This document shows, one piece after another, positions 1 to 19,600 of a stretch of 38,122 nt of DNA. The DNA comes from a virus. Numbering within the stretch: the first letter of the stretch is position 1; each line of letters opens with the position of its first letter. The position numbers and the translations under genes are program-made. The notes beneath the pieces are model-generated. The model saw nothing but the letters and a program-made list of their open reading frames with translations. It did not search any database and was not told where the DNA came from. Location of the stretch: the IMG/VR virus record IMGVR_UViG_3300025759_000244, positions 1 to 38,122 of that record. The stretch is one strand, 5' to 3'.

Positions 1-58
1 TATGATTGAGCACGGAATTGAGGTTGCAAGTTTATATAAAAACACAGCATGGAGTTAA
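1..58 (+). CDS. C-terminal end of an upstream gene (partial)
   Basis: A reading frame enters from the left edge and stops at TAA 56-58. The visible 18 residues read MIEHGIEVASLYKNTAWS, the first Met probably being internal. It sits 24 bases before the next plus-strand gene, as expected of a preceding member of the same operon. The fragment is too short to name. Confidence 0.4.
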   Translation, partial: MIEHGIEVASLYKNTAWS

Positions 59-82
59 TTTTTAACCACATAGAGCAAACTT

Positions 83-580
83 ATGAACAAATTATTAATA
101 ACAACTATAGCAATAAGCTTAGCGATGCCAAAGAGCAACACGAGTAATGTTATACACAAGTCCTTTCCGACAGACGAGCAAGTAAAAGTAACGATCGAGT
201 CCGCTCCGACAGACGAGCAAGCAAAAGTAACGATCAAGTCGTCATTGGAAGATCTAATCAACGCGATCATTTATGTAGAAAGTAGAGGCGATGACTCTGC
301 GATAGGTGATAATGGTTTAGCTGTAGGTTGTTTACAAATACATCCTATATGCATCAGGGAGGCCAATAGAATCATCGGGTTTGATTCTTTTTGTCTAGAT
401 GACAGATATAATAGGCAACAGTCTATAAACGTATTTAAGACCATTAAAAAACGTTATGCAAATAAGTCGAATGAAGCTATAGCGCGCAACTGGAATGGCG
501 GACCACTTGGTTATAAAAAGAAATCAACTATTAAATATTGGAATAAAGTCCAAACACGTTTACAAAATAAATACGAATAA
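83..580 (+). CDS. Secreted lytic transglycosylase/lysozyme-like protein
   Basis: 165 aa. Residues 1-16 form a short hydrophobic signal-like segment (MNKLLITTIAISLAMP). Residues 29-54 are two tandem 13-residue repeats (PTDEQxKVTIxSx). Residues 55-165 look like an SLT/lysozyme-like fold: the sequence ..IIYVESRGDD..GLAVGCLQIHP.. puts a candidate catalytic Glu at 66, followed by the G-x-LQI motif of goose-type lysozymes and soluble transglycosylases. Such enzymes cleave the glycan strand of peptidoglycan. It lies in the plus-strand arm, far from the lysis cassette at 12.3-13.5 kb, so a role other than holin-timed lysis (entry, exclusion or a lysis helper) is possible. The fold call is from motif recognition; export and activity are inferred. 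Confidence 0.65.
   Translation: MNKLLITTIAISLAMPKSNTSNVIHKSFPTDEQVKVTIESAPTDEQAKVTIKSSLEDLINAIIYVESRGDDSAIGDNGLAVGCLQIHPICIREANRIIGFDSFCLDDRYNRQQSINVFKTIKKRYANKSNEAIARNWNGGPLGYKKKSTIKYWNKVQTRLQNKYE
166..243 (+). repeat. Tandem 39-bp duplication inside the transglycosylase-like gene
   Basis: Two adjacent 39-bp copies (166-204 and 205-243) differ at only a few bases. They encode PTDEQVKVTIESA and PTDEQAKVTIKSS. The low divergence points to a recent in-frame duplication that lengthened the spacer between the signal segment and the catalytic domain. Confidence 0.9.
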
Positions 581-597
581 CTAAAGATAATAAATAC

Positions 598-1122
598 ATG
601 AATATATTTTATTTAGACGCAGATCCAGATACGGCTGCTAGGTTACAGTACAACAAACACGTTGTAAAAATGGTTCTTGAGTCAGCTCAAATGTTATGCT
701 CGGCGCATCATTTTCATGGCAATGGTGACAACGTTCCATACAAAGTAAGCCACATTAACCATCCAAGCACTATCTGGACTCGTTCTAATACTAAGCATTA
801 CAATTGGTTATACAACCATATGATGGCTTTAGGAGACGAATATACTAATCGTTATAAGAAAACACATCTTACAATAATTAAATGCAAAGATGCTCTTAAA
901 TGGCCTCCTATGGGTATGACTACGTCAGATTTTAAGCAACCTCCACAGGCAATGCCAGACAAATATAAAAGCGAATGTAGTATTAAGGCTTATTGGAAAT
1001 ATTATATAGCGGAAAAACACACAGTGGCTAATAAAGACGAAAAAATTTATGAAGAATATCCTATTAACTATTCATTAATAAGATTATTTAAACGAAAATT
1101 GAATATGAATTATACAACTTAA
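598..1122 (+). CDS. Conserved phage protein of unknown function
   Basis: 174 aa, starting MNIFYLDADPDTAARLQYNKHVVKM. This opening, the ExAQMLCSAHHFHG segment, the HPSTIWTRSN..NWLYNHMMALGDEYTNRY segment and the AMPDKYK..AYWKYYIAEK segment match a type of protein I recall as common in marine phages and usually left hypothetical. Conserved His, Lys and aromatic residues suggest a nucleic-acid or nucleotide-acting enzyme. The general layout recalls pyrimidine-dimer glycosylases (T4 DenV), but I see no convincing match to DenV itself, so no function is assigned. It starts 17 bases after the preceding stop with an A-rich leader. Confidence 0.6.
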   Translation: MNIFYLDADPDTAARLQYNKHVVKMVLESAQMLCSAHHFHGNGDNVPYKVSHINHPSTIWTRSNTKHYNWLYNHMMALGDEYTNRYKKTHLTIIKCKDALKWPPMGMTTSDFKQPPQAMPDKYKSECSIKAYWKYYIAEKHTVANKDEKIYEEYPINYSLIRLFKRKLNMNYTT

Positions 1123-5340: not shown

Positions 5341-7074
5341 ATGCAAACAACCGAGATAAATGGATTCACGATTGACCGGTTCAATCAATATGGCTTAAAA
5401 GAAGGGGCAAGTCAAGGTATATGTCCTCTTTGCTCACATAATAGAAAACCAAAAAACCAAAAAGCAAAATGTTCGTCTTATGATTGGGACAGAGGAATAG
5501 GTACTTGTCATAACTGTAACACATCGTTTCAATTACACACATACCAAAGAAAGGGTGCTAGTGAACGAAAGTATGTTAGACCAGAAACAAAACTAATGAT
5601 GCAGGGTTTAACTCTGAGGAGTAAAGATACACCAACAACAGATAAAGTTTCGGAATGGTTCGAGTCTAGAGGAATATCTCAAAAGACATTAAACGAACTA
5701 CACGTTGGTCAAGGTGCTGAATATATGCCTCAAACTGGTAAAGTAGAAAACACCATACAATTTAACTATATGATGGGTGATCAACTTATCAATGTTAAAT
5801 ACAGAGATGGTCGTAAAAACTTTAAGTTATACAAGGGTGCTGAAAAAGTATTTTACAATATAAATAGCATAATAGGTTATGATAGCTGTATTATAACCGA
5901 AGGCGAGATGGATGTGTTAGCACTTCATGAAGCTGGTGTTAAGAATGTAATATCGGTACCAAACGGTGCAACATTAAATAACAACAATTTAGATTACTTA
6001 GACAACTGTATAGATTACTTCGAAGATAAAGAAAGAATACTGTTAGCGGTTGATAAAGACGAACCGGGTCAAATGCTACAACAAGAGCTTGTCCGTAGGT
6101 TAGGTGCTGAGATCTGTTTCATAGTTGACTTTGATGATTGTAAAGATGCTAATGAGTATTTAATTAAATACGGTGCGGAAAGCTTATCAGAATCAATAGC
6201 AAAAGCTAGACCATATCCACTAGAAAACGTAACAACGTTCAAAGATATTGAGAACGATATAACAGACTTTGTTAAGAATGGCTTTAAGCCAGGTTTTCAA
6301 GTTGGTCTATCTAATTTTGATGATATATTTTCAACATACACTAAACAGTTTATAACAGTAACGGGTATTCCTAGCTCTGGCAAGTCAGACTTTGTTGATC
6401 AAATGGTTGTTGGTTATAACCAAAACTATGGTTGGAAAACAGCGTTTGCCTCACCGGAGAATCAACCAACGTATTTGCACGCACATAAACTAATGCGTAA
6501 AGTATGGGGTGATATGCCAAATGTGGGTGATATAGGTGGTGCAAAATGGAACGAAGTAGCTGAACACGTTAACGATCATTTTTTCTTCATAGATATGGAT
6601 AAATATGATTTAGACTCAGTGTTACGTAAAGGTGCAGAATTAGTTAAGCGTAAAGGTATCAAATGCTTAGTAATTGATCCATACAACAAAGTGCGAGATA
6701 TAAATGCTAAGACTGACGATGTAAATCGTTACACGATGGATTACTTAATGAAGATAGAGATGTTTGCAAAAAAGTATGACTGCTTAGTTTTTATAGTAGC
6801 GCATCCAACTAAGATGTATAAAGGTAGTGATGGTAAAATTGAAGAACCAACTATGTATAACATTAAAGGTGGTGGTGAATGGTACGACGCTAGTTATCAC
6901 GGGTTACTGGTACACAGGGATTATGAAGCTGGTACAACTAAAGTTAAAGTTCTTAAGGTTAAGTTTCAAAACCTTGGAGAGAACGGTGCTGAGGCTTTGT
7001 TTACTTGGGATCCAGCCTCTGGAAGGTTTATACCTGAAATATCTATAAAATCTAATGACTTGCCGTGGGAATAA
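5341..7074 (+). CDS. DNA primase-helicase, T7 gp4/Twinkle type
   Basis: 577 aa. Residues 28-59 carry a zinc-binding domain (C28-x2-C31 .. C56-x2-C59) used to recognise the priming site. The TOPRIM domain starts with EGEMD at 187-191 and has the Asp pair VDKDEPG near 235-241. The RecA-like helicase domain has Walker A GIPSSGKS (342-349), Walker B LVIDPY with D446, and a later VAHPTK sensor motif. It would unwind DNA and lay down lagging-strand primers in one polypeptide, as in T7. The C-terminus SNDLPWE is acidic with aromatic residues, as in T7 gp4, which contacts the DNA polymerase. Confidence 0.93.
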   Translation: MQTTEINGFTIDRFNQYGLKEGASQGICPLCSHNRKPKNQKAKCSSYDWDRGIGTCHNCNTSFQLHTYQRKGASERKYVRPETKLMMQGLTLRSKDTPTTDKVSEWFESRGISQKTLNELHVGQGAEYMPQTGKVENTIQFNYMMGDQLINVKYRDGRKNFKLYKGAEKVFYNINSIIGYDSCIITEGEMDVLALHEAGVKNVISVPNGATLNNNNLDYLDNCIDYFEDKERILLAVDKDEPGQMLQQELVRRLGAEICFIVDFDDCKDANEYLIKYGAESLSESIAKARPYPLENVTTFKDIENDITDFVKNGFKPGFQVGLSNFDDIFSTYTKQFITVTGIPSSGKSDFVDQMVVGYNQNYGWKTAFASPENQPTYLHAHKLMRKVWGDMPNVGDIGGAKWNEVAEHVNDHFFFIDMDKYDLDSVLRKGAELVKRKGIKCLVIDPYNKVRDINAKTDDVNRYTMDYLMKIEMFAKKYDCLVFIVAHPTKMYKGSDGKIEEPTMYNIKGGGEWYDASYHGLLVHRDYEAGTTKVKVLKVKFQNLGENGAEALFTWDPASGRFIPEISIKSNDLPWE

Positions 7075-7337
7075 AAAAAGTACCAGAAGGCTATGCTATG
7101 ACTGAGTATGAGATGGAAGCAAATAAATGGTGTGTTAACAATAATATTACCATAACAGTAAGACAAGTTACTTGGAGGGAAAAGAAATACTATGTTGATA
7201 TAGAAACAGGTAGGTTCCCTAATAGAAAGCTTATTGCAACGTCTCCAGAGAAATATAATTACAAAACTGCACAAAAAAAGGCAGCAGAATACAGAGTTTA
7301 TTACTATAATAAAAGAGAAATAAAAGATGAGGACTAA
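7065..7337 (+). CDS. Small conserved phage protein, unknown function
   Basis: 90 aa from GTG 7065, which overlaps the primase stop; ATG 7098 (MTEYEMEANKWC) is an alternative start. The pattern KWCVNNNITITVRQVTW..YYVDIETGR.. ends in a Tyr/Lys-rich helix (AAEYRVYYYNKRE). I recall this type of protein from phage replication modules but know no function. It overlaps the next gene by 11 bases. Confidence 0.6.
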   Translation: MGIKKVPEGYAMTEYEMEANKWCVNNNITITVRQVTWREKKYYVDIETGRFPNRKLIATSPEKYNYKTAQKKAAEYRVYYYNKREIKDED

Positions 7338-7968
7338 ATTTGAGAATGCTAACGAAGCATATGAATACTTTTACGATAAGATATTAGTTGAAGGTATTGA
7401 GTTTGATAACACGAGAGCGCTATTTAATGTTGGCTTTTATATTACTAATCCAGGCATGAAGTCTATAACAAATATAGAACGTAAATGGAAATTACACTAC
7501 GCTTATGCTGAATGGCAATGGTACTTATCTGGCGATCCTAATATAAGCAAGTTAGGATATATATACGGTAAAGTCCCTAAAATATGGAAACGTATGGCTG
7601 ATAAGTATGGTGATGTTAATTCTAACTATGGGTACCAATGGCTAAGAGGTGATCAACTTGAAAAAGTAATTAATCTTTTAAAAGAAAATCCAAAAACAAG
7701 ACAGGCTGCGATAAGTATATATGATGGCAAAGAAATAGACAAATATGATAACGACACGCCATGTACTTATGCGATACAATTTACGATAATAAACAATGAG
7801 CTGTGTATGTCTGTCTATATGCGATCTAATGACCTCTGGTATGGTTTCTGCAACGACCAATACCAATTTGCATCATTGCAGCAATTAGTTGCAGACGAAC
7901 TGTCTATGGACACCGGGTGGTACTACCACCACGCACATAATTTACACTTATATAATGATAAGATTTGA
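7327..7968 (+). CDS. Thymidylate synthase-fold pyrimidine methylase; predicted dCMP hydroxymethylase-like
   Basis: 213 aa. By coincidence of length, numbering matches E. coli ThyA across the active site: C146 (nucleophile, in TPCTY), Q151, R166-S167-N168-D169, H207 and Y209 (HLY). E62 in EWQWYLSGD corresponds to the general-base Glu. The position of ThyA N177, which selects dUMP, is Asp (D177, in FCNDQY). T4 dCMP hydroxymethylase also has Asp there, 31 residues after its Cys, and the same Asn-to-Asp change is known to favour dCMP. I therefore predict action on dCMP (methylation or hydroxymethylation with methylene-THF). The chain ends four residues after Y209, about 50 short of ThyA; T4 gp42 is also shorter than ThyA but not by this much. 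The C-terminal folate-closing tail is absent. Confidence 0.75.
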   Translation: MRTKFENANEAYEYFYDKILVEGIEFDNTRALFNVGFYITNPGMKSITNIERKWKLHYAYAEWQWYLSGDPNISKLGYIYGKVPKIWKRMADKYGDVNSNYGYQWLRGDQLEKVINLLKENPKTRQAAISIYDGKEIDKYDNDTPCTYAIQFTIINNELCMSVYMRSNDLWYGFCNDQYQFASLQQLVADELSMDTGWYYHHAHNLHLYNDKI

Positions 7969-8783
7969 AATATAAAATATACCACATTTTTAATAAAAAG
8001 ATCGGAGTAACACGTGATCTTTATAAGAGAGTTACGGAGCAACAAGGTTATGCTCCAGGAGAATATGAAGTTCTACTCGAGTCAGATGATATAGATTTAG
8101 TATCAGACTTAGAGTTAGAACTTCAACAGTCTTATGGCTATAATGTTGATAGTAAACCATATAACCAATTGTACAAAAACCAAAAACCAAATAATAATAA
8201 TAATAATATGAAAATAAACGCAACAGAACAAACATCAACCTTTCCATGTCCAGTTAACAAGTTAAAAGGTAGGCTTATGGATAATAAAGGTTTGACTTGG
8301 GAAACAGACCACGGTGAATTTGAGATTAACAGTGAAACAATACCTTGGATAGTAGCTAACGCCAAGACATCTATGTATAACCCAAATAGATGTTATATCT
8401 ACAACAAAGCTTATAACTATGTTTTCTTAACAGAAGATACTTATCCACAAGCCTACAGTCCATCAAACCACAGTATAATATACACACATATTGCACGAAC
8501 ATTTGAGCTTATAAGAAATTGGGCTCAAGAACGAGGGCTTTATGACTCTGGTGATTTAAAGACACAGTATGTCAAGTTAATAGAAGAAAGTGGTGAATTA
8601 GCTAGAGCTATATTAAAACACGACGATGATGAGTTTGTAGATGCTATAGGTGATATGGTTGTAGTATTAACCAATTTAGCACATCTAGGTGGTACAACAA
8701 TAGAACGTTGTATTGACTCTGCATACAACACTATAGCAAACAGAACTGGTAGCATGATAAACGGAACATTTGTTAAGGATTAA
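7965..8783 (+). CDS. Fusion of a GIY-YIG-like domain and a MazG-like pyrophosphohydrolase
   Basis: 272 aa from TTG 7965, overlapping the previous stop (TTGA). Residues 1-70 (YKIYHIFNKKIGVTRDLYKRVTEQQGY..ELELQQSYGYNVDS) resemble a GIY-YIG nuclease-type module. Residues 76-81 are six Asn encoded by (AAT)6, and Met82 (ATG 8208) directly follows. Residues 82-185 are unassigned. Residues 190-250 are MazG-like: KLIEESGELARAI gives the EExxE motif and DEFVDAIGDMVVVL the ExxD metal site, typical of all-alpha NTP pyrophosphohydrolases that remove unwanted dNTPs. The MazG part may also be made separately from ATG 8208. The catalytic state of the GIY-YIG part is uncertain. Confidence 0.7.
   Translation: MKYKIYHIFNKKIGVTRDLYKRVTEQQGYAPGEYEVLLESDDIDLVSDLELELQQSYGYNVDSKPYNQLYKNQKPNNNNNNMKINATEQTSTFPCPVNKLKGRLMDNKGLTWETDHGEFEINSETIPWIVANAKTSMYNPNRCYIYNKAYNYVFLTEDTYPQAYSPSNHSIIYTHIARTFELIRNWAQERGLYDSGDLKTQYVKLIEESGELARAILKHDDDEFVDAIGDMVVVLTNLAHLGGTTIERCIDSAYNTIANRTGSMINGTFVKD
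8190..8207 (+). repeat. (AAT)6 microsatellite at the domain seam
   Basis: Six perfect AAT triplets end directly at ATG 8208. In frame they encode six Asn joining the GIY-YIG-like and MazG-like parts. The tract also resembles the A/T-rich leaders seen before other starts in this window. Confidence 0.9.
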
Positions 8784-8998
8784 TGGCTATACGAGATCCA
8801 AAAAGTACTCACTACGAGTTATATAAAGGTACACAAGCTATCGACGTTATTGAGGCTGCTTTAACTAAAGATGAATTTATAGGTTTTTTGAAAGGCAACG
8901 CTTTGAAATATCAGCTACGTCTTGGTAAAAAAGATAATATGAGTAGAGAGTTTGAGAAAATAGAGTTTTACACTAAAGAAATAGAAAGATTAACATGA
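8783..8998 (+). CDS. DUF3310 (SaV-like) protein
   Basis: 71 aa. STHYELYKGTQAIDVIEAALTKDEFIGFLKGNALKYQLRLGKKDN.. matches the DUF3310 pattern (HYxxG..DvIe..lt.eef.gFlkGNaiKYllR..kK) found in many phages near nucleotide-metabolism genes. It ends in a charged helix (EIEFYTKEIERL-like). The biochemical role is unknown, although it is sometimes labelled nucleotide kinase. The ATG shares a base with the previous stop (TAATG). Confidence 0.75.
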   Translation: MAIRDPKSTHYELYKGTQAIDVIEAALTKDEFIGFLKGNALKYQLRLGKKDNMSREFEKIEFYTKEIERLT

Positions 8999-9252
8999 GA
9001 AATTACGTAACAAGAACACGAGATCAAATAGTGCTAGATGTTATTGAGAAAATAGATAACAGAAGCGTTATGGGTAACGACAAATATGGCGGAACCATGA
9101 TGAAAGAGATAGAAAATGGTGAAAAAGATTTAAAAGACTTCATCATCGATGTACAAGAAGAATTAATGGATGCTTTATTATACCTTGAATCTGCAAAACA
9201 TTGTCTAAACGATGCTATACAAGATGCTGCACTACGAATGGTTGCCGAGTAA
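8995..9252 (+). CDS. Small MazG/dNTP pyrophosphohydrolase-like protein
   Basis: 85 aa and mostly helical. GNDKYGGTMM..LKDFIIDVQEELMDALLYLESA has the arrangement KYG..(linker)..D.qeEl.Da..YL seen in phage dATP/dGTP pyrophosphohydrolase and MazG-like helical domains, with EE(x)2D as a candidate Mg site. It overlaps the preceding gene (ATGA) and, with the MazG fusion 200 bases upstream, would give the phage two dNTP-cleaning enzymes. It is short for a full MazG fold, so function is tentative. Confidence 0.5.
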   Translation: MRNYVTRTRDQIVLDVIEKIDNRSVMGNDKYGGTMMKEIENGEKDLKDFIIDVQEELMDALLYLESAKHCLNDAIQDAALRMVAE

Positions 9253-9707
9253 TGAAGAATCGATCAAGAAAAAAAAGAGGCCCTGTCAGAAGTAACAAAG
9301 TTACCTATGACGGGGTGACTTTTGCCTCTGGTTTAGAAAAATATATGTATCGAGCGCTTAAAAAAGCTAAGATAAAATTTGAATATGAGCCAAGAACATA
9401 CCAACTGTTAGAGTCATTTGAGTTTAGTAGTTGCGCTATAGAAAGACAAGCTAATGGTAAGGGTGACTTTAAAGACCGAGGAAACAAAAAAATACTTGGC
9501 ATTAAATACACACCAGATTTTGAAGGCGTTGGTTGGACATGTGAAACAAAAGGTAGAGCAAATGATAGCTTTCCTATTAGATACAAGTTATTTAAACATT
9601 GGGTTCAGAATAATGATCCTGGTAGGTTGCTTTTAAAGCCACAGTGTCAACGCGAGTGTGACGTAGCAATTGAATTAATACTACAATTAAAGAATGAAAA
9701 GGAATAA
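9252..9707 (+). CDS. DUF1064/endonuclease I-like PD-(D/E)XK nuclease (junction resolvase)
   Basis: 151 aa from ATG 9252 (TAATG overlap with the previous stop); a longer frame from 9201 only shadows the upstream gene. It has a basic N-terminus (KNRSRKKRG), then VTYDGVTFASGLEKYMYRALKK with E29, KYTPDFEG with D89, and TCETKGR with E98 and K100. This E..D..ExK set is the nuclease core of T7 endonuclease I and DUF1064 proteins, which cleave branched DNA. It fits with replication and recombination in this arm. Confidence 0.78.
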   Translation: MKNRSRKKRGPVRSNKVTYDGVTFASGLEKYMYRALKKAKIKFEYEPRTYQLLESFEFSSCAIERQANGKGDFKDRGNKKILGIKYTPDFEGVGWTCETKGRANDSFPIRYKLFKHWVQNNDPGRLLLKPQCQRECDVAIELILQLKNEKE

Positions 9708-9855: not shown

Positions 9856-10034
9856 GAACAGACTGGAGTTTAAGTATCGGGCTATATCCTGGTATGTTGT
9901 TCGGATTTAGAACATACGAACACGAAAGTGAAACCTTTAATAAGGTAACACATGTATTTTATTTGCCATTTGTAGATTTGGCTTTAGAAATAATGAGAAT
10001 AAATAACGAAGAAGAAAACAATGACGAAGGATAA
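9852..10034 (+). CDS. Small protein, unknown function
   Basis: 60 aa. It starts MRTDWSLSIGLYPGMLFGFR, continues with THVFYLPFVDLALEIMRI and has an acidic tail (NNEEENNDEG). It overlaps both neighbours by 4 and 14 bases. The pattern LSIGLYPGxLFGFRxY..V.YLPF.Dl.l is one I recall from other phages upstream of ribonucleotide reductase or nuclease genes, with no known role. Confidence 0.6.
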   Translation: MRTDWSLSIGLYPGMLFGFRTYEHESETFNKVTHVFYLPFVDLALEIMRINNEEENNDEG

Positions 10035-11892
10035 AAAGTTGTTAAGTGATATAACTGTGCACAATAAGTATGCGCGTTATTTAAAAGATGAAAACCGTAG
10101 AGAGACATGGTTAGAGCTAGTTACCAGGAACAAGGATATGCACATAAAAAAATATCCAAACTTAAAAGATAACATTGAGGAACTATATGTTAAATACGTA
10201 ATACCTAAGAAAGTATTACCTTCGATGAGATCGTTACAGTTTGGTGGTAAAGCAATAGAGCTAAATAACTCTAGAATATACAATTGTGCATTTATGCCTG
10301 TTGATAGTATACACTCTTTTAGTGAAGCTATGTTTTTATTATTAGGTGGAACAGGTGTTGGCTATTCTGTGCAAAATCACAATATAGAAAAACTACCTGA
10401 GATACGTAAACCTAACTACAATAGACACAAGAGATACATAGTACAGGATAGCATAATGGGTTGGGCTGACGCTATTAAAACGTTATTTAAGTCCTACACC
10501 GGAAAGCTAACATCGCATATAACATTTGATCTATCTGATATTAGAGAAAAAGGTGCTGCGTTAGTAACAGCTGGAGGTAAAGCTCCTGGACCTGAGCCAC
10601 TTAGGTTGTGCTTAGTTCAAATTGAAGCCATACTTAGACAGAAAAAAGATCGACATCAATTAACAGATATAGAGTGCCACGATATAATGTGTCATATAGC
10701 TGATGCTGTTTTAGCTGGTGGTATAAGAAGAGCAGCTATGATCTCGTTGTTTGATTTAAACTCAGAAGCAATGCTTAGCGCTAAGGTTGGAGCTTGGTGG
10801 GAAACAAACCCACAGAGAGGTCGAGCTAATAATTCAGTATCATTATTAAGACACAAGATCGATAAAGAGACCTTCTTTAATCTAATGGAAAGAGTAGAAG
10901 CATCTGGATCTGGTGAACCTGGTATATACTTAACCAACGATAAAACCTGGGGTACAAATCCATGTTGCGAAATAGCTTTAAGACCATATCAGTTTTGTAA
11001 TTTGACTGAGATTAACATGTCTACAATTAAAGATCAAGAGGACTTTGATAACTGTAGTTCTGCTGCGGCATTCTTAGGAACGTTACAAGCTGGTTATACA
11101 GACTTTCATTATCTAAGGGATATATGGCAAAGGACTACAGAAAAAGATGCGTTAATCGGCGTATCTATGACGGGTATAGCTGATAAAAATGTTTTAGGTT
11201 TAAGCTTCAACAAAGCCGCAGAGACTGTTAAGAGCACAAATGCTTTTTATGCTAATAAAATAAATATAAACCAAGCGGCAAGGGCTACTTGTGTTAAACC
11301 AGCTGGAACAACTAGTTTAGTTTTAGGTACTAGTAGTGGGATTCATGCTTGGCATAGTGAATACTATATTAGAAGAATGCGTATAGGTAAAAATGAAGCT
11401 ATATATAAATACTTAAACGCTGTGTTACCAAAAGGGTTTTTAGAAGACGAGTTCTTTAGTCCAACAACAACAGCAGTTTTATCTATTCCACAAAAAGCAC
11501 CAGATGGAGCTATAACTAGAAAAGAGTCTGCATTAGATTTGCTTGAAAGAGTTAAACAAATATCTAAAGATTGGGTTCAACCAGGCACAGTTGATGGTGC
11601 TAATACACACAATGTGTCTTGCACTGTTACAGTTAAACCTAGTGAATGGAAAGAAATTAGTAGCTGGATGTGGGAGAACAAAAAATACTATAATGGTCTA
11701 TCTGTATTACCAGAAGATGGTGGAACATATAAGCAGACACCGTTTGAAGACTGTTCTAAGGAAACATATGAGAGAATGATGAACGATTTATTAAGCGTTA
11801 ATCTTGACATGTCATTAGTTTCAGAGGATTTTGATGCGACGTCGTTCTCAGAAATACTTGCTTGTGCTGGTGGTGCTTGCGAAATCAAATAA
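10021..11892 (+). CDS. nrdJ: Class II (adenosylcobalamin-dependent) ribonucleotide reductase
   Basis: 623 aa. Cysteine spacing fits the monomeric Lactobacillus leichmannii RTPR: C89 (YNCAFMPV) and C326 (QFCN) are the reducible pair, and N313-P-C315-C-E317 holds the thiyl radical Cys and its Asn/Glu partners (C315 to C326 is 11, as 408 to 419 in RTPR). C615 and C620 (CAGGAC) form the C-terminal shuttle pair. KPAGTTSLVLGTSSGIHAWHS is the phosphate-binding loop. It converts ribonucleotides (probably triphosphates) to deoxyribonucleotides and needs B12 from the host or medium, but no oxygen and no second subunit. A strong hairpin follows at 11914. Confidence 0.93.
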   Translation: MTKDKKLLSDITVHNKYARYLKDENRRETWLELVTRNKDMHIKKYPNLKDNIEELYVKYVIPKKVLPSMRSLQFGGKAIELNNSRIYNCAFMPVDSIHSFSEAMFLLLGGTGVGYSVQNHNIEKLPEIRKPNYNRHKRYIVQDSIMGWADAIKTLFKSYTGKLTSHITFDLSDIREKGAALVTAGGKAPGPEPLRLCLVQIEAILRQKKDRHQLTDIECHDIMCHIADAVLAGGIRRAAMISLFDLNSEAMLSAKVGAWWETNPQRGRANNSVSLLRHKIDKETFFNLMERVEASGSGEPGIYLTNDKTWGTNPCCEIALRPYQFCNLTEINMSTIKDQEDFDNCSSAAAFLGTLQAGYTDFHYLRDIWQRTTEKDALIGVSMTGIADKNVLGLSFNKAAETVKSTNAFYANKININQAARATCVKPAGTTSLVLGTSSGIHAWHSEYYIRRMRIGKNEAIYKYLNAVLPKGFLEDEFFSPTTTAVLSIPQKAPDGAITRKESALDLLERVKQISKDWVQPGTVDGANTHNVSCTVTVKPSEWKEISSWMWENKKYYNGLSVLPEDGGTYKQTPFEDCSKETYERMMNDLLSVNLDMSLVSEDFDATSFSEILACAGGACEIK

Positions 11893-13603: not shown

Positions 13604-16600
13604 TTACTTTTTAGTTTTTATTTCGTATTTTTTACCATCAAAGATATATGATGTCTTACCTGCGGCTTTAGCTTCTTTTTTAGCTTTAGCTTTAGCTTTC
13701 CTTTTTTCAACTTGCTTTTCTTTTTTTAACCTTTTGTATACAATCTTTATGTAGTCTTGTTCTTCATTTTTAACATTAACATCCCAAGTCCTCCAACCAA
13801 GACCTAAAGCCATTCTTTGGTATGCATTATTCCTGCTATCTAAAGCTTCTGATACACCTTTTACTTCTACTAAAGCTCTATCTAGTGGTAGGTTTAAAGC
13901 TGCTGAAGCTACACTAGCCCATTTTTGATATACAGGAGATGGATTTAATTTTCCGTCTAAGGTAACATCCCAACCCATTGCGTTTATAACATCTTTTTCG
14001 TACCTATCGGTTTGTATTGCACTATATATTTTTCTAAACTTAGACCCAATAGGTGGAGACACATTCATTAATTCTAAAATAGTTTGTGTATGATCTGCAG
14101 TATAACCTTTCTCTTCTTCTTTGTAATATCTAAGTATACCGTTTTTTAATGTTGACACAACTGCACCAGCTAATCCACTACCTCTTAATAAAGTATCAAT
14201 CATGTTGTTTATTATTTTTTCGTACTTTTTATCTAATACTTCTTTTCTTTTTTCGTCATCATCATCTGGGTTAAACTCAGGTAACATAGCAAATAATGCA
14301 GTTTGTAACGATGCAAATATAAGGTTCTGTATAAACCCATAATAGGCTATTTTACTTAGGTTTGTTTTCCAATCACCTCTACCAGCAATTAAGTCTTGTC
14401 CAGCTTTCTTTATTAACCTAGTATATTGCATCGGAGTATTTTGAAAAGCTAATATTAAACGTCCTAAATGACTAGCTTGTTGCTTAGATACGAGCATAGG
14501 ATCTCCAGATTGCTGTGTTTCATCTGATATTGTACTAAAGTCCTCAAACGCCTTAGCTTCTGCTTGAGCATCAGACATCCCTTGTTTTTTGTATGTCTTA
14601 GTTCTATTTATTAAGAATGATGCACCACCTGTTGCTATTGCAAAACTATCAGCTATTTGTGTTGGCTTGAAACCTATCTTGAGTAAGTACGCTATAACAG
14701 CAGAGGCTTTGTCTTTTGCATTTATTGCTTGACTAGCAATTTCAGCTTCTTGAATATCTGACTTTAAACCAGCACGTCTTTCTTTTAGTTTGTCAGAGTT
14801 AAATATTTTAGCCCAAGCTTTCCAATAAGCTGGTTGGTTAGCAAAAGCTGCACCCGCTTTCAATGGATTGTTATCACTCCAGTTCATGAAGTTAGTAAAA
14901 GATAACATCTGAAGCAATGCGGATCTTCTATTGAAGAACATTATAGTACCAACTGAGTTGTTCACCCAGTTCAACCATCTTTGTTCTATATCTCCAGATC
15001 GTCCAGGTCTGTTACTACCAGATTTCATTCTATCTATAGAGTTAACTAAAGCTTTGACATAGTTGGTTCCATATACAGCTTCTAACTTGTTCAGGTTTGT
15101 TTTACTAAATATCTCGTCAGCATTTTCTATAAACTCTGCAAGGTACTCCTTTCTGTTTATGTTGTCACTTATGTCGTTTAAGTCTTTTAATATACTACCA
15201 ATATCCCAGTGTTCTTTTGGTTCAACCCATGCTTCCTTTTTAGATAGAGCCTGCAGTCCTTCTGCAAAGCCAACTAAGTCTGGGTCGTTTTCAACGAGTT
15301 TACTTATTTTTTTCTGAGACCTCTTGTATACACCAGGTATAGTTTGTCCTTGTTTATTCCAGAGATATATCCTAATTGCTTGATCTATAGTATAATCAGT
15401 GTCTGCGATCTTATCACCAAGTCTATTTCTAATATCATACATCTCTAGAAGAGCCTTGTAATCCTTTTTTAGAGCTTGACTAGCTTGCTCGAGTGCTGCA
15501 ACACCACGCACATACGGTCTAACGAGGTTCGTTTCGAAAAACTCTTGATCTGCTTCACCTTGTTTACCTTTGCCAGCTAAAGTATAAGATGTTAAACCTC
15601 TAAAGTCTTCTGCACTAGGAGGAATAAAGTATTTGTATTTACCTTTACTAGCGCCTTTCTTTCTAGCTATAACCTGCGAATAAAAAGCTTTAGCTTTAAC
15701 ACCCTTATTACGCTCTACCATTTTGTTAAGATCAGAGCTCATGCTTTTTTTCCTACTGGCTACAGCTTGTTGTACTTTGCTTTTTACATCAAACGTCTCT
15801 AATACTTCTTTAACAGCAGTTACATTTTTAATAGCATCGTCAACAAAATAAAAGTCATTATATCCTTCAGCAACTTTACTAACCATCCAATCAGCTTTAG
15901 CCTGAGCAGTGCTGTTAGCTAAACCTGTTATGTTTTTAATAGGTATTTCTAAACCTAAACCTTTCATGAAGGCATGTATAGCACGCTCTGAAGCCTCAGG
16001 TCTAGCCGTTAATATAAAGATGTTTTTGTTACCAAATTTATCTATAGCTTTTTTAATTCTAGGAATCAATGGACCTGGAGTACCTTGAACCACTTTGTTA
16101 AATTCGCTAAAATCAAAAGTAGCACCCTCCTCTAGTAATGATTCTCCATTGCTAGCAAACTCAGCTGGCGTTATCTTATAGGTTTCGTCATCTTGGTTTA
16201 CTATAACTTTGCTTTCACTAAAAGCTAAAGTATCATCAAAATCATACACACTTATACCTTTTGGGTTTTGGTGGTAAGACATGCTTCTAGATTTGGCAAT
16301 AGCTTTTTGTTGAGCGTTTATTTTTCTAGCCTCTAATAGCTTGTTGGTTTTGTTTGTTAGTTCTTTGTTGTACTGCGTTAGCGTTTTTGATTCACTGAAC
16401 TTTTGTAGCTTTATTTCTGGTAACTTGGTTTTAACAGCATTTGAAGTACTGTCCATAGCAGAGACAACACTAGGGTCGGCATACCTAGCCACGTATACGG
16501 CATCTTCTAAGTAAGCTTCTTCGTTGAAAAATATATTACCACCAGGCATACTTGATCTATAGAAATCACTTAAAACACGGTCGTGTATTTTAGGTATTAT

Positions 16601-19600
16601 AGCTACTTTATAGTTTTTAAATATTTCATCAAGTGTTCTTGTATAGTTGTCATAAGTTATATACCTAGCAACCTCCTGTAGTATTTCAACAGCTGGTATC
16701 GTATGCTCATATCTATAGTCTTTATCACCTAAATTTTTCGTTTTAAAGAAATAAGATGGAATTGCTGCTGTTCTAACCAATCCTCTTATGCTAGAGTTAA
16801 ACCAATTTAAAATCATGGTTAAGTCTTCTTTGCTTAATTCTTTTTTGTCGTATTGCTCTTTAAGCTTATTTGCTATCTTTAAAAACCCTTTTCTTTGGTT
16901 GATAGCATAATCTTGCCTCTCGCTTAAAGTCCATTTAGTATTGTCCCAGTCGCTAAAGTTGTTTGCAGTTTGTCCTGGTGAAGCTTTTATTTTAAATTTC
17001 TTATCATCAAATTCATAAGTTCTAGAGGTTTTATCATATTTAACGTCGTAGCCATTGCTACGTAGAAAACCAAACCAATCGTCCCTGCTTAAGAAAAGAA
17101 AACTCTGAGTAATAGGTTTTAGCTCTCCATTTTTACCATAGTAACCAACAAACTCATCTGCAACTTGGTTTTCAAAGTCAGCTTTTTCAAACTTAACAGG
17201 TACACTGTACACCTTACCCCACCCAGCACTTATTGTTGGCATTAGTGTATCTATAATTTCAGAAAAACCAAAATCTTCTACTAGCGGTGTAAAAACATTT
17301 TTAACAAAAGATGATCTAACTCTGTTAACATTTTCTATGTTCGAGAACTTTGATTTAAACGGATTGCTATCAACAACGACACCAACCTTAGTTATCCATG
17401 TCTTATATTTGGTCGAGTAGCTTTTCATTATGTCACGCTTACCAGATGCAGCACCAGCAATTTCGCTTTTAGAAAACCCTGATACACGCATCTCTTGTCT
17501 AATGAAAGTGTTAGCAGCTAAAGATGAATATGTTTTAGCCATACCTTTGAGTAACTGTCCAATGGGACTACGTAATTCTCCTTTAGGCAACACATTTGGA
17601 ACCCCCTTTGGTGTAATACCTATAGCAGTTTTTAGGTCTTCTAATGTCTCCTTAGATATACTGCCGATAAACTCAGGTTTAAGCTTTCTAACATTAGTTT
17701 GACTTGTTAAACCTTTACTTCTACCTTTTGGACTGGTTAATTTACCGGTTGGGTCGATGTGTGGTTCATAAAAGTAGTCAAGTACTCTTTTCGGTAAACC
17801 TAGAGCAGTACCTTTTATGTTTTTTGGTACATCTAGTGTTTCTTTACCTATAACTGCTTCTGGTAAAGCTATATTGTATTTAGGGAGTATTTTAACAAAC
17901 TTTGCTAAGTTGTCTGCTTTAAAGAAAAACTGTTGTATTGTTCTAGCTTCCACTATAGAACCTAAGTTTGCTGCGGCTTCATCTATTTTTTTAGCGGGTA
18001 TACCTATTATTTGCTCACCTATTTCACCAGCATACTGCTTAGCTATATTTTTAAACGTAGGGCTACCTTCAGGTTCTTTAGTTATAGTTATATTCTCTGG
18101 TGCGCCAGTAAACCCAAGGGGATTTATGGTTGGTCTTTCTTTTACACCAACAGTCTCTTGCACGGGAACATCAACACTATCGTCAGCTACTTGTCTAGCT
18201 TCTTTAACATCTAAACTCTCGGCTCTTCTCTCTGCTTCTATTGCTAGCTTTTTCTTAGCGTCTAGCTTACTAAATCTAGTGTTAGCAAATATAAACTCAC
18301 CAAATGTAATTGGTTCACCACCCTCTGTTTTTCTAACAGCAGCTGGATCATAGTTTATCATTCTATCTACTACACCTTCAAGCATTAGTTCTGCTTCTTC
18401 TTTTGATATAGCCCTAGAGTTTACATAATTATATATTGCCCCGCCTGGCAAGGTTGATTCATACGCTTTGTTGAACACGTCTCTAGATAAGAAGTCTTCC
18501 TTTGTTTTTATGCTTTCTGGAACTAGTGAATTTATATCACTAAGAACACTTTTAGATGGCTTAACGCCTCTTGTTGTTTTCTCTGCATCGGTTTTAAGCT
18601 TTTTAAACATCTCACTTTCTTCTACAGACTTTAAGTCTTCTTTGTTAAAAGTGCCATCGTTTATTTTTTTAGCCATATCAGAAATAAACTTAACTACAGC
18701 TGGTTGTGTTGAAATATCTGAAGGTATGTTTGCTTTATTCTTAAATAAACTACCTAGATTATATAAGAATGTTCTACTTACTTTTTTGTCTTTTTTAATC
18801 CTACCAATACGCTCTATAAAACCAACAATTATCTCCTCAGAGTTAAACATTATATCATCAGTCTCGCTAACTGTTTCAACAACTTGTGCTGGATCTACAA
18901 ATCCAAACATTTCTTCAGCTATGTCTGGATGTGTTTCCTCTAAAAAGTTCTTTATTTCTTTTGCTACAACATCTACGTCAAACCCGTTGTCAATCCAATC
19001 CCATAAAACTAAGTGACTAACTTCGTGTGTTCCTGTGTTAGCTCTTTCGTTCTTGATTTGTGACTCTTTTACTGTTATGTATGTATATACACCGTCTATT
19101 TTAGATGCTTGGCCATTAAGTGCGCCACCATCTTCAATTACACCCCTCCAAAACTTCTTCTCCGAATCACTAGTTTTTTCATCATCTATTTTTTTGTTTG
19201 CAAAATCAGTGGCTTCTTTTTCTGTTTCAAAGTTATAACCTTTGCTTTTTTTATCTTTAACACTTTTCAAGACAGCATTAGCCGCTTTATTGTTTTTATC
19301 AACTTCCTCTGCTAGATATATCTCGTAAGCTTCTTTGTTTAACGCACCTTCGTTTGGATCTAAACCTTCGCTAAGTAACTTATCTTTTGCTTGCTCTGTT
19401 ATTTTGTTATATCGTGCCTCATCATTAACTTTAAGTAATTCAAACTTATTACTACTCTGCTTAAATGCTTCTATAGATACTTGACTTATAGCATACTGTT
19501 CTGCTAGTTCATTTATTTTTGTTTTTTTGTACCTATTACTTGCTTTAGAGTTTTGCACCGCTACAGCCTCATTTCGCAGTTCACTTTGTTTAGCAAAGGC

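Follow-up and report, generated by a model that had tools for sequence, protein, structure and literature searches.

The 38,122-nucleotide viral sequence analyzed here (IMG/VR record IMGVR_UViG_3300025759_000244, positions 1 to 38,122), hereinafter called the window, carries a gene at positions 7327 to 7968 of the plus strand that very probably encodes a minimal folate-dependent deoxycytidine monophosphate (dCMP) hydroxymethylase working like gp42 of phage T4. The open reading frame (ORF) specifies 213 amino acids (aa) followed by a stop codon, and its product matched the thymidylate synthase (TS) family PF00303 (E value, 1.5e-28; 100.1 bits; cutoff, 24.3) as well as the TS families of PHROG. 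Since the PF00303 match is strong, the ORF is not a chance one. The enzyme kind is already known (i.e., the T4-type dCMP hydroxymethylase, or dCH), and on the best reading the window protein joins it as a further member. We found no paper on the clade of this protein among the open PMC papers.

Residue signature of the short enzyme

An earlier interpretation made from the DNA letters alone (the sequence-only reading) had numbered C146, R166, D169, H207, and Y209 as in Escherichia coli ThyA and had proposed that an Asp, shared with the T4 enzyme, replaces ThyA Asn177. Our alignments confirmed these points: Asp177 stands opposite ThyA Asn177 and aligns with the Asp of T4-like gp42, for which the T4-like phages ime09 and S16 were used in the comparison. 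In an 11-row alignment, C146, T147, R166, S167, D169, D177, H207, and Y209 are invariant (the protein's own numbering).

The report on the ternary structure of T4 dCH (PMC6400193) describes as features of this enzyme Asp179, which selects dCMP, Asp145, which lies three residues before the catalytic Cys (position Cys-3), and the motif Ser94-X-Tyr96; it names Asp at Cys-3 together with Ser two residues before the Tyr (position Tyr-2) as a hydroxymethylation signature, and describes the loss of the C-terminal TS tail. T4 dCH carrying the D145N exchange makes no 5-hydroxymethyl-dCMP (PMC6400193). The window protein has the TS fold (PF00303 and a structure model that matches T4 dCH), D177 in the place of T4 Asp179, D143 at Cys-3 of C146 (where a dCH has Asp or Glu), and S99-N-Y101 (where a dCH has Ser or Thr at Tyr-2). 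The folate-site residues E58, D169, and Y209 are retained. Only 4 residues follow the HxY motif (Y209), i.e., there is no TS-like tail, compared with 55 residues in ThyA and 28 in T4-like gp42. The approximately 50 C-terminal residues that the sequence-only reading had found to be missing are thus indeed absent. Its view of this absence as a second oddity did not hold up, because T4 dCH is likewise without this tail (PMC6400193) and all proteins of the window type end early.

Three sets of viral proteins were compared. A scan of viral contigs gave 385 relatives of the window protein in 387 pattern hits, and the best 80 were kept; these 80 loci, the window, and its own copy (L081) make 82 entries and 74 distinct proteins (window-type set). 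The BF-type set, built around Bacteroides phage BF503P2, holds 64 distinct proteins from 80 loci kept out of 511 relatives (512 hits), and the AG-type set, built around an Agathobaculum phage, holds 13 distinct proteins from 13 loci. All 74 window-type proteins are 212 to 218 aa long, end 4 to 9 residues past HxY, and share E58, W80, Y94, R126, C146, T147, R166, S167, D169, D177, H207, and Y209 (ThyA numbering, as hereinafter), as well as G173. D177, T147, Asp at Cys-3, and Ser at Tyr-2 occur in 151 of the 151 distinct viral proteins (74 window-type proteins including that of the window, 64 BF-type, and 13 AG-type), the D177 counts of the BF and AG types being partly built in because one scan pattern of each includes residue 177. 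This residue lay outside the patterns used for the window family and for the genome contigs described below. Because many alignment rows have a gap at ThyA column 143, Cys-3 and Tyr-2 were located by their distance in residues from the aligned Cys and Tyr.

Ordinary TS differs at Cys-3 and at residues 147 and 177. Among 117 control loci (which include the second copies L351, L352, and L366 on the contigs of L305, L277, and L347), residue 177 is Asn in 115 and a gap in 2, Cys-3 is Leu in 116 and Val in 1, and residue 147 is His in 116 and Ala in 1. When Cys-3, residue 147, and residue 177 are read together as a grid, E. coli ThyA, T4-like td, and the TS proteins of phages RHph_I1_9, Shagrat, and 000TH008 show Leu/His/Asn; T4-like gp42 and the window protein show Asp/Thr/Asp; and the proteins of Icarian and Teagster show Ile/Met/Asp with a full tail. 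Asp/Asn/Asn is found in Adastra (SPO1-like), Mutine (ViI-like), Ab18, and Rhodoferax phage P26218, whose homologs we take to be deoxyuridine monophosphate (dUMP) hydroxymethylases like SPO1 gp29. Bacillus phage G is off the grid (Leu/Val/Asn), and Gordonia phage Sixama combines Asp/Thr/Asp with Gly at Tyr-2 and a tail of 78 residues. From these combinations we infer two separate axes, with residues 177 and 147 going with the base and Cys-3 and the tail going with the product; the window protein falls in the T4 corner of this sequence grid. MetaGPA linked residue 177 (Asp) and residue 147 to cytosine-modified contigs (PMC8670742). The use of dCMP proposed in the sequence-only reading is supported by our sequence and structure tests, in which Asp177 and Thr147 are features of cytosine-using enzymes. 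That reading had left the product as 5-hydroxymethyl- or 5-methylcytosine; Asp at Cys-3 and Ser at Tyr-2 favor the former and disfavor the latter.

The Ser mark is not common to all D177 enzymes. In a set from genome contigs (63 of 65 proteins tabulated; L199, which is shorter than 120 aa, and L246 were left out), residue 177 is Asp in 47, Asn in 15, and masked in 1; all 47 D177 proteins have T147, but most of them have Gly at Tyr-2, and at Cys-3 they carry Asp or Glu and, in rare cases, Asn or Ser. We met no relative with the same Asp that is a proven TS, several being annotated as such, in comparisons that included no case-by-case search.

Structure model, phylogeny, and predicted mechanism

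The structure prediction and superposition that the sequence-only reading had suggested as a check gave an AlphaFold2 model of high confidence (mean predicted local distance difference test score [pLDDT], 96.3; predicted template modeling score, 0.92) from an alignment of 36 window and viral-contig rows. It matches the folds of MilA, T4 dCH, and ThyA. In VIA-align comparisons, the best agreement was with MilA (Z score, 25.6; 1.5 Å over 208 residues; 1.5 Å over 206 residues for the dCMP-bound form, 5jp9), with AfhB of phage HY126 next (9iqc, Z score, 25.5, 2.0 Å over 206 residues; 9iqu, Z score, 24.9), ahead of T4 dCH (Z score, 23.5; 1.9 Å over 197 residues) and the best E. coli ThyA form (Z score, 21.7; 2.0 Å over 199 residues). 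Identities on the structural alignment are 27% with MilA, 23% with T4-like gp42, and 20% with AfhB.

A phylogeny against known dCMP hydroxymethylases, also suggested in that reading, was built from 71 rows with columns 147 and 177 excluded. The window protein lies inside a 23-row short clade (support, 100/99), apart from both the ordinary TS group (100/100) and the group of dUMP-type enzymes (100/100), and T4 gp42 is adjacent to this clade, without support. AfhB is a long row whose placement is unsure. On a larger, quickly built tree, residue 177 changes only three times.

By analogy with T4 dCH (PMC6400193), the mechanism, activity, and product of the enzyme can be predicted. Cys146 would attack C6 of dCMP, Asp177 would read and protonate the cytosine ring, and methylene-tetrahydrofolate would supply C5 with a one-carbon unit. 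In the absence of a C-terminal tail that would exclude solvent, Asp143 and Ser99 would position a water molecule, and the exocyclic methylene would be quenched by this water rather than by hydride, giving 5-hydroxymethyl-dCMP. This nucleotide would be phosphorylated and incorporated into virion DNA, where it would replace the cytosine partly or completely, while the neighboring MazG enzyme may take deoxycytidine triphosphate (dCTP) as its substrate and lower the dCTP pool. The CpG observed/expected ratio of 0.69 holds no usable information on base modification.

Alternative readings and points against the hydroxymethylase

A dCMP methylase would use the same substrate and transfer hydride, yielding 5-methyl-dCMP and 5-methylcytosine in phage DNA. 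The exchange of Asn for Asp alone converts an ordinary TS to a dCMP methylase (PMC8670742), and natural candidates with D177 are found in Microbacterium phage Icarian and Curtobacterium phage Teagster, whose proteins may be dCMP methylases. These have Ile at Cys-3, Pro at Tyr-2, Met147, and tails of 62 and 65 aa, whereas the window protein has Asp, Ser, Thr147, and 4 residues, and thus lacks the methylase-like combination (i.e., Asp177 with Leu or Ile at Cys-3, Pro at Tyr-2, and a TS tail). A dihydrofolate reductase (DHFR) gene adjoins the TS gene in Icarian; no DHFR-named family was seen among the ORFs that we scanned. We therefore consider a methylase improbable. A flavin adenine dinucleotide (FAD)-dependent dCMP hydroxylase like AfhB, making 5-hydroxy-dCMP for arabinosylated hydroxycytosine, is also very improbable, even with two AfhB structures close to MilA in the fold comparison and an AfhB that is likewise short and carries D177 and T147. 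The AfhB gene was located in phage HY126, and its product is the crystallized protein. In AfhB, as the one sequence compared, residues 169, 209, 173, and 80 are Asn, Phe, Val, and Val, Cys-3 is Glu, and Tyr-2 is Thr; in the 74 window-type proteins, D169, Y209, G173, and W80 are retained, the last two positions are occupied by Asp and Ser, and identity is lower to AfhB than to MilA. That these residues define an AfhB family is an extrapolation from that single sequence. Residue 80 is a weak mark by itself, Trp80 also being absent from the SPO1-like, ViI-like, and Sixama proteins and from 2 of 13 AG-type proteins. Because some folate-type relatives lack Trp80, the case against AfhB is carried by D169 and Y209, and their retention favors a folate enzyme.

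A divergent TS or dUMP hydroxymethylase serving thymine metabolism would agree with the presence of a single TS-family gene in each of 48 relative records, only one of which has ThyX; as far as these records reach, the short TS is therefore the sole TS-like gene. However, Asn177, Leu143, His147, and the C-terminal tail of ThyA are all absent from the window protein, as is the Asn147/Asn177 pair of the dUMP type, which is replaced by Thr and Asp. The tree separates the protein from both groups, and the one record with ThyX (G036) carries it alongside the short TS. We regard this reading as highly improbable. It is more improbable still that the protein is a cytidine monophosphate (CMP) hydroxymethylase that serves RNA or a small molecule. 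Among solved structures, MilA comes closest in sequence and fold, but its large C-terminal region is missing here, and its ribose-type Lys133 and Ala176 are replaced in 74 of 74 proteins by Arg126 and Ser167, which the MilA study (PMC5175136) describes as deoxy-type residues. Inactivity of a truncated or decaying gene is equally far-fetched: the protein is about 50 residues shorter than ThyA, but its length is typical of the whole type, its catalytic residues are invariant in 74 distinct proteins, and its fold is predicted with high confidence.

Several observations weigh against a T4-type dCMP hydroxymethylase. Identity to T4-like gp42 is low (31% over 82% of the query; ime09, tblastn), and T4 gp42 stands beside the short clade without support (39/24). 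The fold does not split the hydroxymethylase from AfhB (Z scores, 25.6 versus 25.5); because MilA and AfhB tie, a fold match alone cannot decide the product. In the phosphate site, where T4 has an Arg pair (Arg123 and Arg124, from the partner subunit), the first position holds Arg in all 74 window-type proteins, and the second (ThyA Arg127) holds Gln in the window protein (Q in 51, H in 14, R in 6, and K in 3 of the 74). This Gln need not be fatal, because SPO1-like and ViI-like proteins have it too. The association with MazG described below is not general to D177 enzymes, since none of the 13 AG-type loci has it, which weighs against a universal TS-MazG link. Finally, the carbamoyltransferase C-terminal family is absent from all 48 window-type records, and no hypermodifying transferase was recognized among the subset of ORFs scanned in the window and its sister record. 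Because the 48 records lack this carbamoyltransferase family, any hydroxymethylcytosine of the window phage may be the final form of the base or may undergo further alteration by an unknown gene.

Other genes of the TS family

In the AG-type set, the Agathobaculum phage protein annotated as a deoxyuridylate hydroxymethyltransferase (L086 3838 to 4500) has Asp177 and Thr147; because this pair is of the dCMP type, the annotation is probably wrong. The Microbacterium and Curtobacterium phage TS proteins (L254 1342 to 2274 and L253 1492 to 2367), which have three IMG/VR relatives (L386 to L388), carry Asp177 on an otherwise TS-like site. These proteins, filed as TS, are candidate dCMP methylases with Ile at Cys-3, Met147, and a full tail; the Icarian-type set comprises 4 loci, one of them Asn-type. 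A second, longer TS-like protein is encoded near the short TS in the BF503P2 locus (L082 5121 to 5927), where it has Leu for Glu58, and paralogs occur in L102, L108, L111, and L128, where they lie just downstream of a carbamoyltransferase gene.

Gene neighborhood and the link to MazG

The TS-family gene is surrounded by a tight run of overlapping genes (7065 to 9707; Table 1).

Table 1. Features of the window around the TS-family gene
Feature	Position	Strand	Evidence
3' end of dCMP deaminase-family gene, cut by window edge	1..58	+	ORF L181 13265-13696 of record G001
Primase-helicase, upstream	5341-7074
90-aa ORF of unknown function, 11-base overlap with TS gene	7065..7337	+	Found in 58 loci (window included); no family
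TS-fold gene, predicted folate-dependent dCMP hydroxymethylase	7327..7968	+	PF00303, signature residues, AlphaFold2 model
Ser99 codon, two before Tyr101 (T4 dCH Ser94-X-Tyr96)	7621..7623	+	Ser in 151/151 distinct viral proteins
Asp143 codon, three before Cys146 (T4 dCH Asp145; Leu in TS)	7753..7755	+	Asp in 151/151; T4 dCH report (PMC6400193)
Catalytic Cys146 codon	7762..7764	+	Invariant in alignments
Asp177 codon, dCMP/dUMP selector	7855..7857	+	Asp in 151/151 distinct viral proteins
GIY-YIG-like domain (N-terminal) joined to MazG-type NTP pyrophosphohydrolase (C-terminal); proposed to remove dCTP	7965..8783	+	PF03819, PF01503
DUF3310 protein, overlaps MazG gene	8783..8998	+	PF11753, 3.8e-16
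85-aa protein, MazG-like by eye only	8995..9252	+	64 loci, window included
DUF1064/resolvase-like gene	9201-9707
Class II (B12-type) ribonucleotide reductase, deoxynucleotide supply	10021..11892	+	phrog_367, 6e-131; PF02867, PF21995

The sequence-only reading had pointed to two MazG-like enzymes nearby that could act on the competing unmodified nucleotide. The first stood: the protein at 7965 to 8783 exceeds the Pfam MazG cutoffs (PF03819, 2.5e-06, 28.1 bits, cutoff 22; PF01503, 22.3 bits, cutoff 21.3). The second resembles MazG by eye only, with no Pfam match at an E value of 0.01, no NCBIfam match, and matches only to PHROGs of unknown function. Of 79 loci (counting the window), 69 have the MazG gene immediately after the TS gene; in two others, the sequence ends at that point. 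Since such adjacency inside the window-type phages could be explained by close co-inheritance, other sets were counted. Pfam MazG (PF03819) occurs in 47 of 48 window-type records (taken from the 80 loci and mostly the longer ones) versus 4 of 50 records with an Asn-type TS (the first 50 of 80 Shagrat-type controls), with 45 versus 1 over the cutoff, and this control supports a link for the first of the two genes. With a hidden Markov model of our own, which was trained on the window- and BF-type sets and hence favors them (the Pfam model being neutral), MazG was found within 5 kb in 76 of 80 window-type and 55 of 80 BF-type loci, and in none of the 13 AG-type, 117 ordinary TS, and 4 Icarian-type loci. 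Of the 64 distinct BF-type loci, 41 have a MazG relative no more than 3 kb away. Because its median position is upstream and not downstream of the TS gene, the link has outlived a change in gene order.

The BF-type neighborhoods also contain clusters for dUTPase (19 loci), dCMP deaminase (16 loci), and carbamoyltransferase (6 of the 64 distinct loci, near the short TS; one member confirmed by Pfam), counted from scanned members. MetaGPA found that PRA-PH (PF01503) and dCMP deaminase domains co-occur with TS, often only on cytosine-modified contigs, and an enzyme of the carbamoyltransferase family makes 5-carbamoyloxymethylcytosine from 5-hydroxymethylcytosine (PMC8670742). A near-identical sister phage, IMG/VR record G001 (99.8% identity over 16 kb), has a sequence at 13639 to 14500 that is 100% identical to window positions 1 to 862. 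Its dCMP deaminase-family gene (PF00383, 9.0e-26; ComEB, 1.3e-25, below the ComEB cutoff) runs into this stretch, and the window therefore starts inside that gene. The family was found in 5 of the 48 relative records, G001 included. The class II ribonucleotide reductase is present in 14 loci in all (window included), whereas 44 and 41 of 81 loci have class I NrdB and NrdA clusters, respectively, at this site.

Some relatives carry further genes beside the short TS. One has a 2-oxoglutarate-Fe(II) oxygenase gene (L032 2892 to 3590; PF13640, 1e-09) between its TS and MazG genes. In 11 of the 80 window-type loci (e.g., L036 519 to 3545, L051 2134 to 5157, and L066 5001 to 7975), the TS gene is preceded by a cassette encoding DUF6378, an SGNH-fold-like protein (10 loci), a 300-aa protein of unknown function, and a PALP-like pyridoxal phosphate enzyme; the same four clusters occur in 47, 18, 21, and 19 of the 64 BF-type loci. 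This cassette is possibly a hypermodification pathway. Its gene of approximately 310 codons, which lies upstream of TS in 10 of the 80 window-type loci, is continuous with the following gene in L068, and does not occur in the window, was considered as a beta-glucosyltransferase gene on the basis of a weak PF09198 match of one member (19.3 bits; cutoff, 27; residues 30 to 95). We dropped this assignment because a model of the protein (pLDDT, 77) instead matches SGNH/GDSL hydrolases, mostly over residues 130 to 315 (best Z score, 13.6).

The MazG partner protein

The N-terminal part of the partner protein (window 7965 to 8162) is a GIY-YIG-like domain fused to MazG. In the L036 homolog it shows a weak resemblance, below the cutoff, to T5orf172/MUG113 domains, which are members of the GIY-YIG group. 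Of the 75 members of the MazG cluster, 70 have the long form (240 aa or more); of the other five, four (97 to 100 aa) are MazG alone and one is cut by a contig end. In all 64 distinct long homologs, Y6, K12, G14, R22, and E50 of the N-terminal part and the MazG acidic residues E200, E201, E204, D219, and D223 are invariant (L001 numbering). Among 1,023 phage records with a match to the fused protein, none covers 80% of its length. The MazG partner with its GIY-YIG-like domain is perhaps the more novel part of the locus.

In T4, the dCTPase clears dCTP (PMC6071114), and endonuclease II, a GIY-YIG enzyme, degrades host DNA while the modified cytosine of T4 is spared (PMC1564403); these are separate proteins, whereas the window has MazG and GIY-YIG-like domains in one. 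By this analogy, it is conceivable, but rather unlikely, that the gene pair at 7327 to 8783 condenses the T4 take-over of cytosine, with a dCMP hydroxymethylase next to a fusion protein that removes dCTP and cuts unmodified host DNA.

Host, other features, and significance

The terminase of the sister record is 46.5% identical to those of Flavobacterium phages, also matches Cellulophaga, Tenacibaculum, and Maribacter phages, and is 62.5% identical to that of one uncultured record; among isolates, it points to Flavobacterium and Cellulophaga phages as the nearest. On the basis of these sequence matches, a member of Bacteroidota is the likely host. Record G001 further encodes a GroEL-like chaperonin (L181 5001 to 6599, minus strand) and a GroES-like co-chaperonin (L182 5740 to 6336, minus strand; PHROGs 5725 and 13932), the GroES-like gene being close to the terminase and portal genes. 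The window itself contains an ORF of 2,714 aa (13604 to 21748, minus strand).

By analogy with T4, the window phage may carry altered cytosine in its DNA. If so, a large group of uncultivated phages would make hydroxymethylcytosine with an enzyme approximately 30 residues shorter than that of T4, with a bearing on which bacterial defenses can see these phages, and chemistry-based sequencing or restriction of such viromes would be biased. The residue grid (Cys-3, 147, 177, Tyr-2, and tail) offers a simple readout of substrate and product for phage TS-family genes, several of which are currently filed simply as TS.

Comparison with known systems

T4 gp42 (1b49 and 6a9a) resembles the window protein in its Asp selector, Asp at Cys-3, Ser-X-Tyr motif, Thr147, lack of a TS tail, Glu58, Arg126, and Ser167, as well as in its fold (Z score, 23.5). 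The proteins differ in that 4 residues follow HxY in the window protein versus 28 in T4-like gp42, and in the Gln that replaces the second phosphate Arg of gp42. Unlike in T4, no glucosyltransferase was recognized beside the window gene. MilA (5jnh and 5b6d) is the closest solved protein in sequence (3e-21) and in fold (1.5 Å), but it prefers CMP through Lys133 and Ala176 and has a helical C-terminal region (PMC5175136); the window protein has deoxy-type residues and no such region. AfhB of HY126 (9iqc and 9iqu), described by the PDB titles as an FAD-dependent hydroxylase with dCMP as its substrate, shares the short TS fold, D177, and T147, and lacks D169, Y209, and W80.

The nearest relative in the phage collection is the TS-family protein of BF503P2 (WAX07047.1, annotated as a dCMP 5-hydroxymethyltransferase; 43% identity, 93% covered), which has the same signature and belongs to the same short clade. 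It is longer (226 aa, with a 17-residue tail), and its phage has a second, longer TS-like gene without Glu58. The TS-family protein of Enterococcus phage VPE25 also has the same signature (35% identity) but comprises 281 aa with a 75-residue tail, and a beta-glucosyltransferase gene lies two genes downstream. The DNA of VPE25 is resistant to bisulfite conversion and to EcoRI and MspI, and PvuRts1I cleaves it incompletely (PMC4999554). These data show cytosine modification in a phage with a relative of the window protein, rather than the activity of the window protein itself; of the Asp-bearing relatives whose phages have DNA data, that of VPE25 is the nearest, and this phage is cytosine modified.

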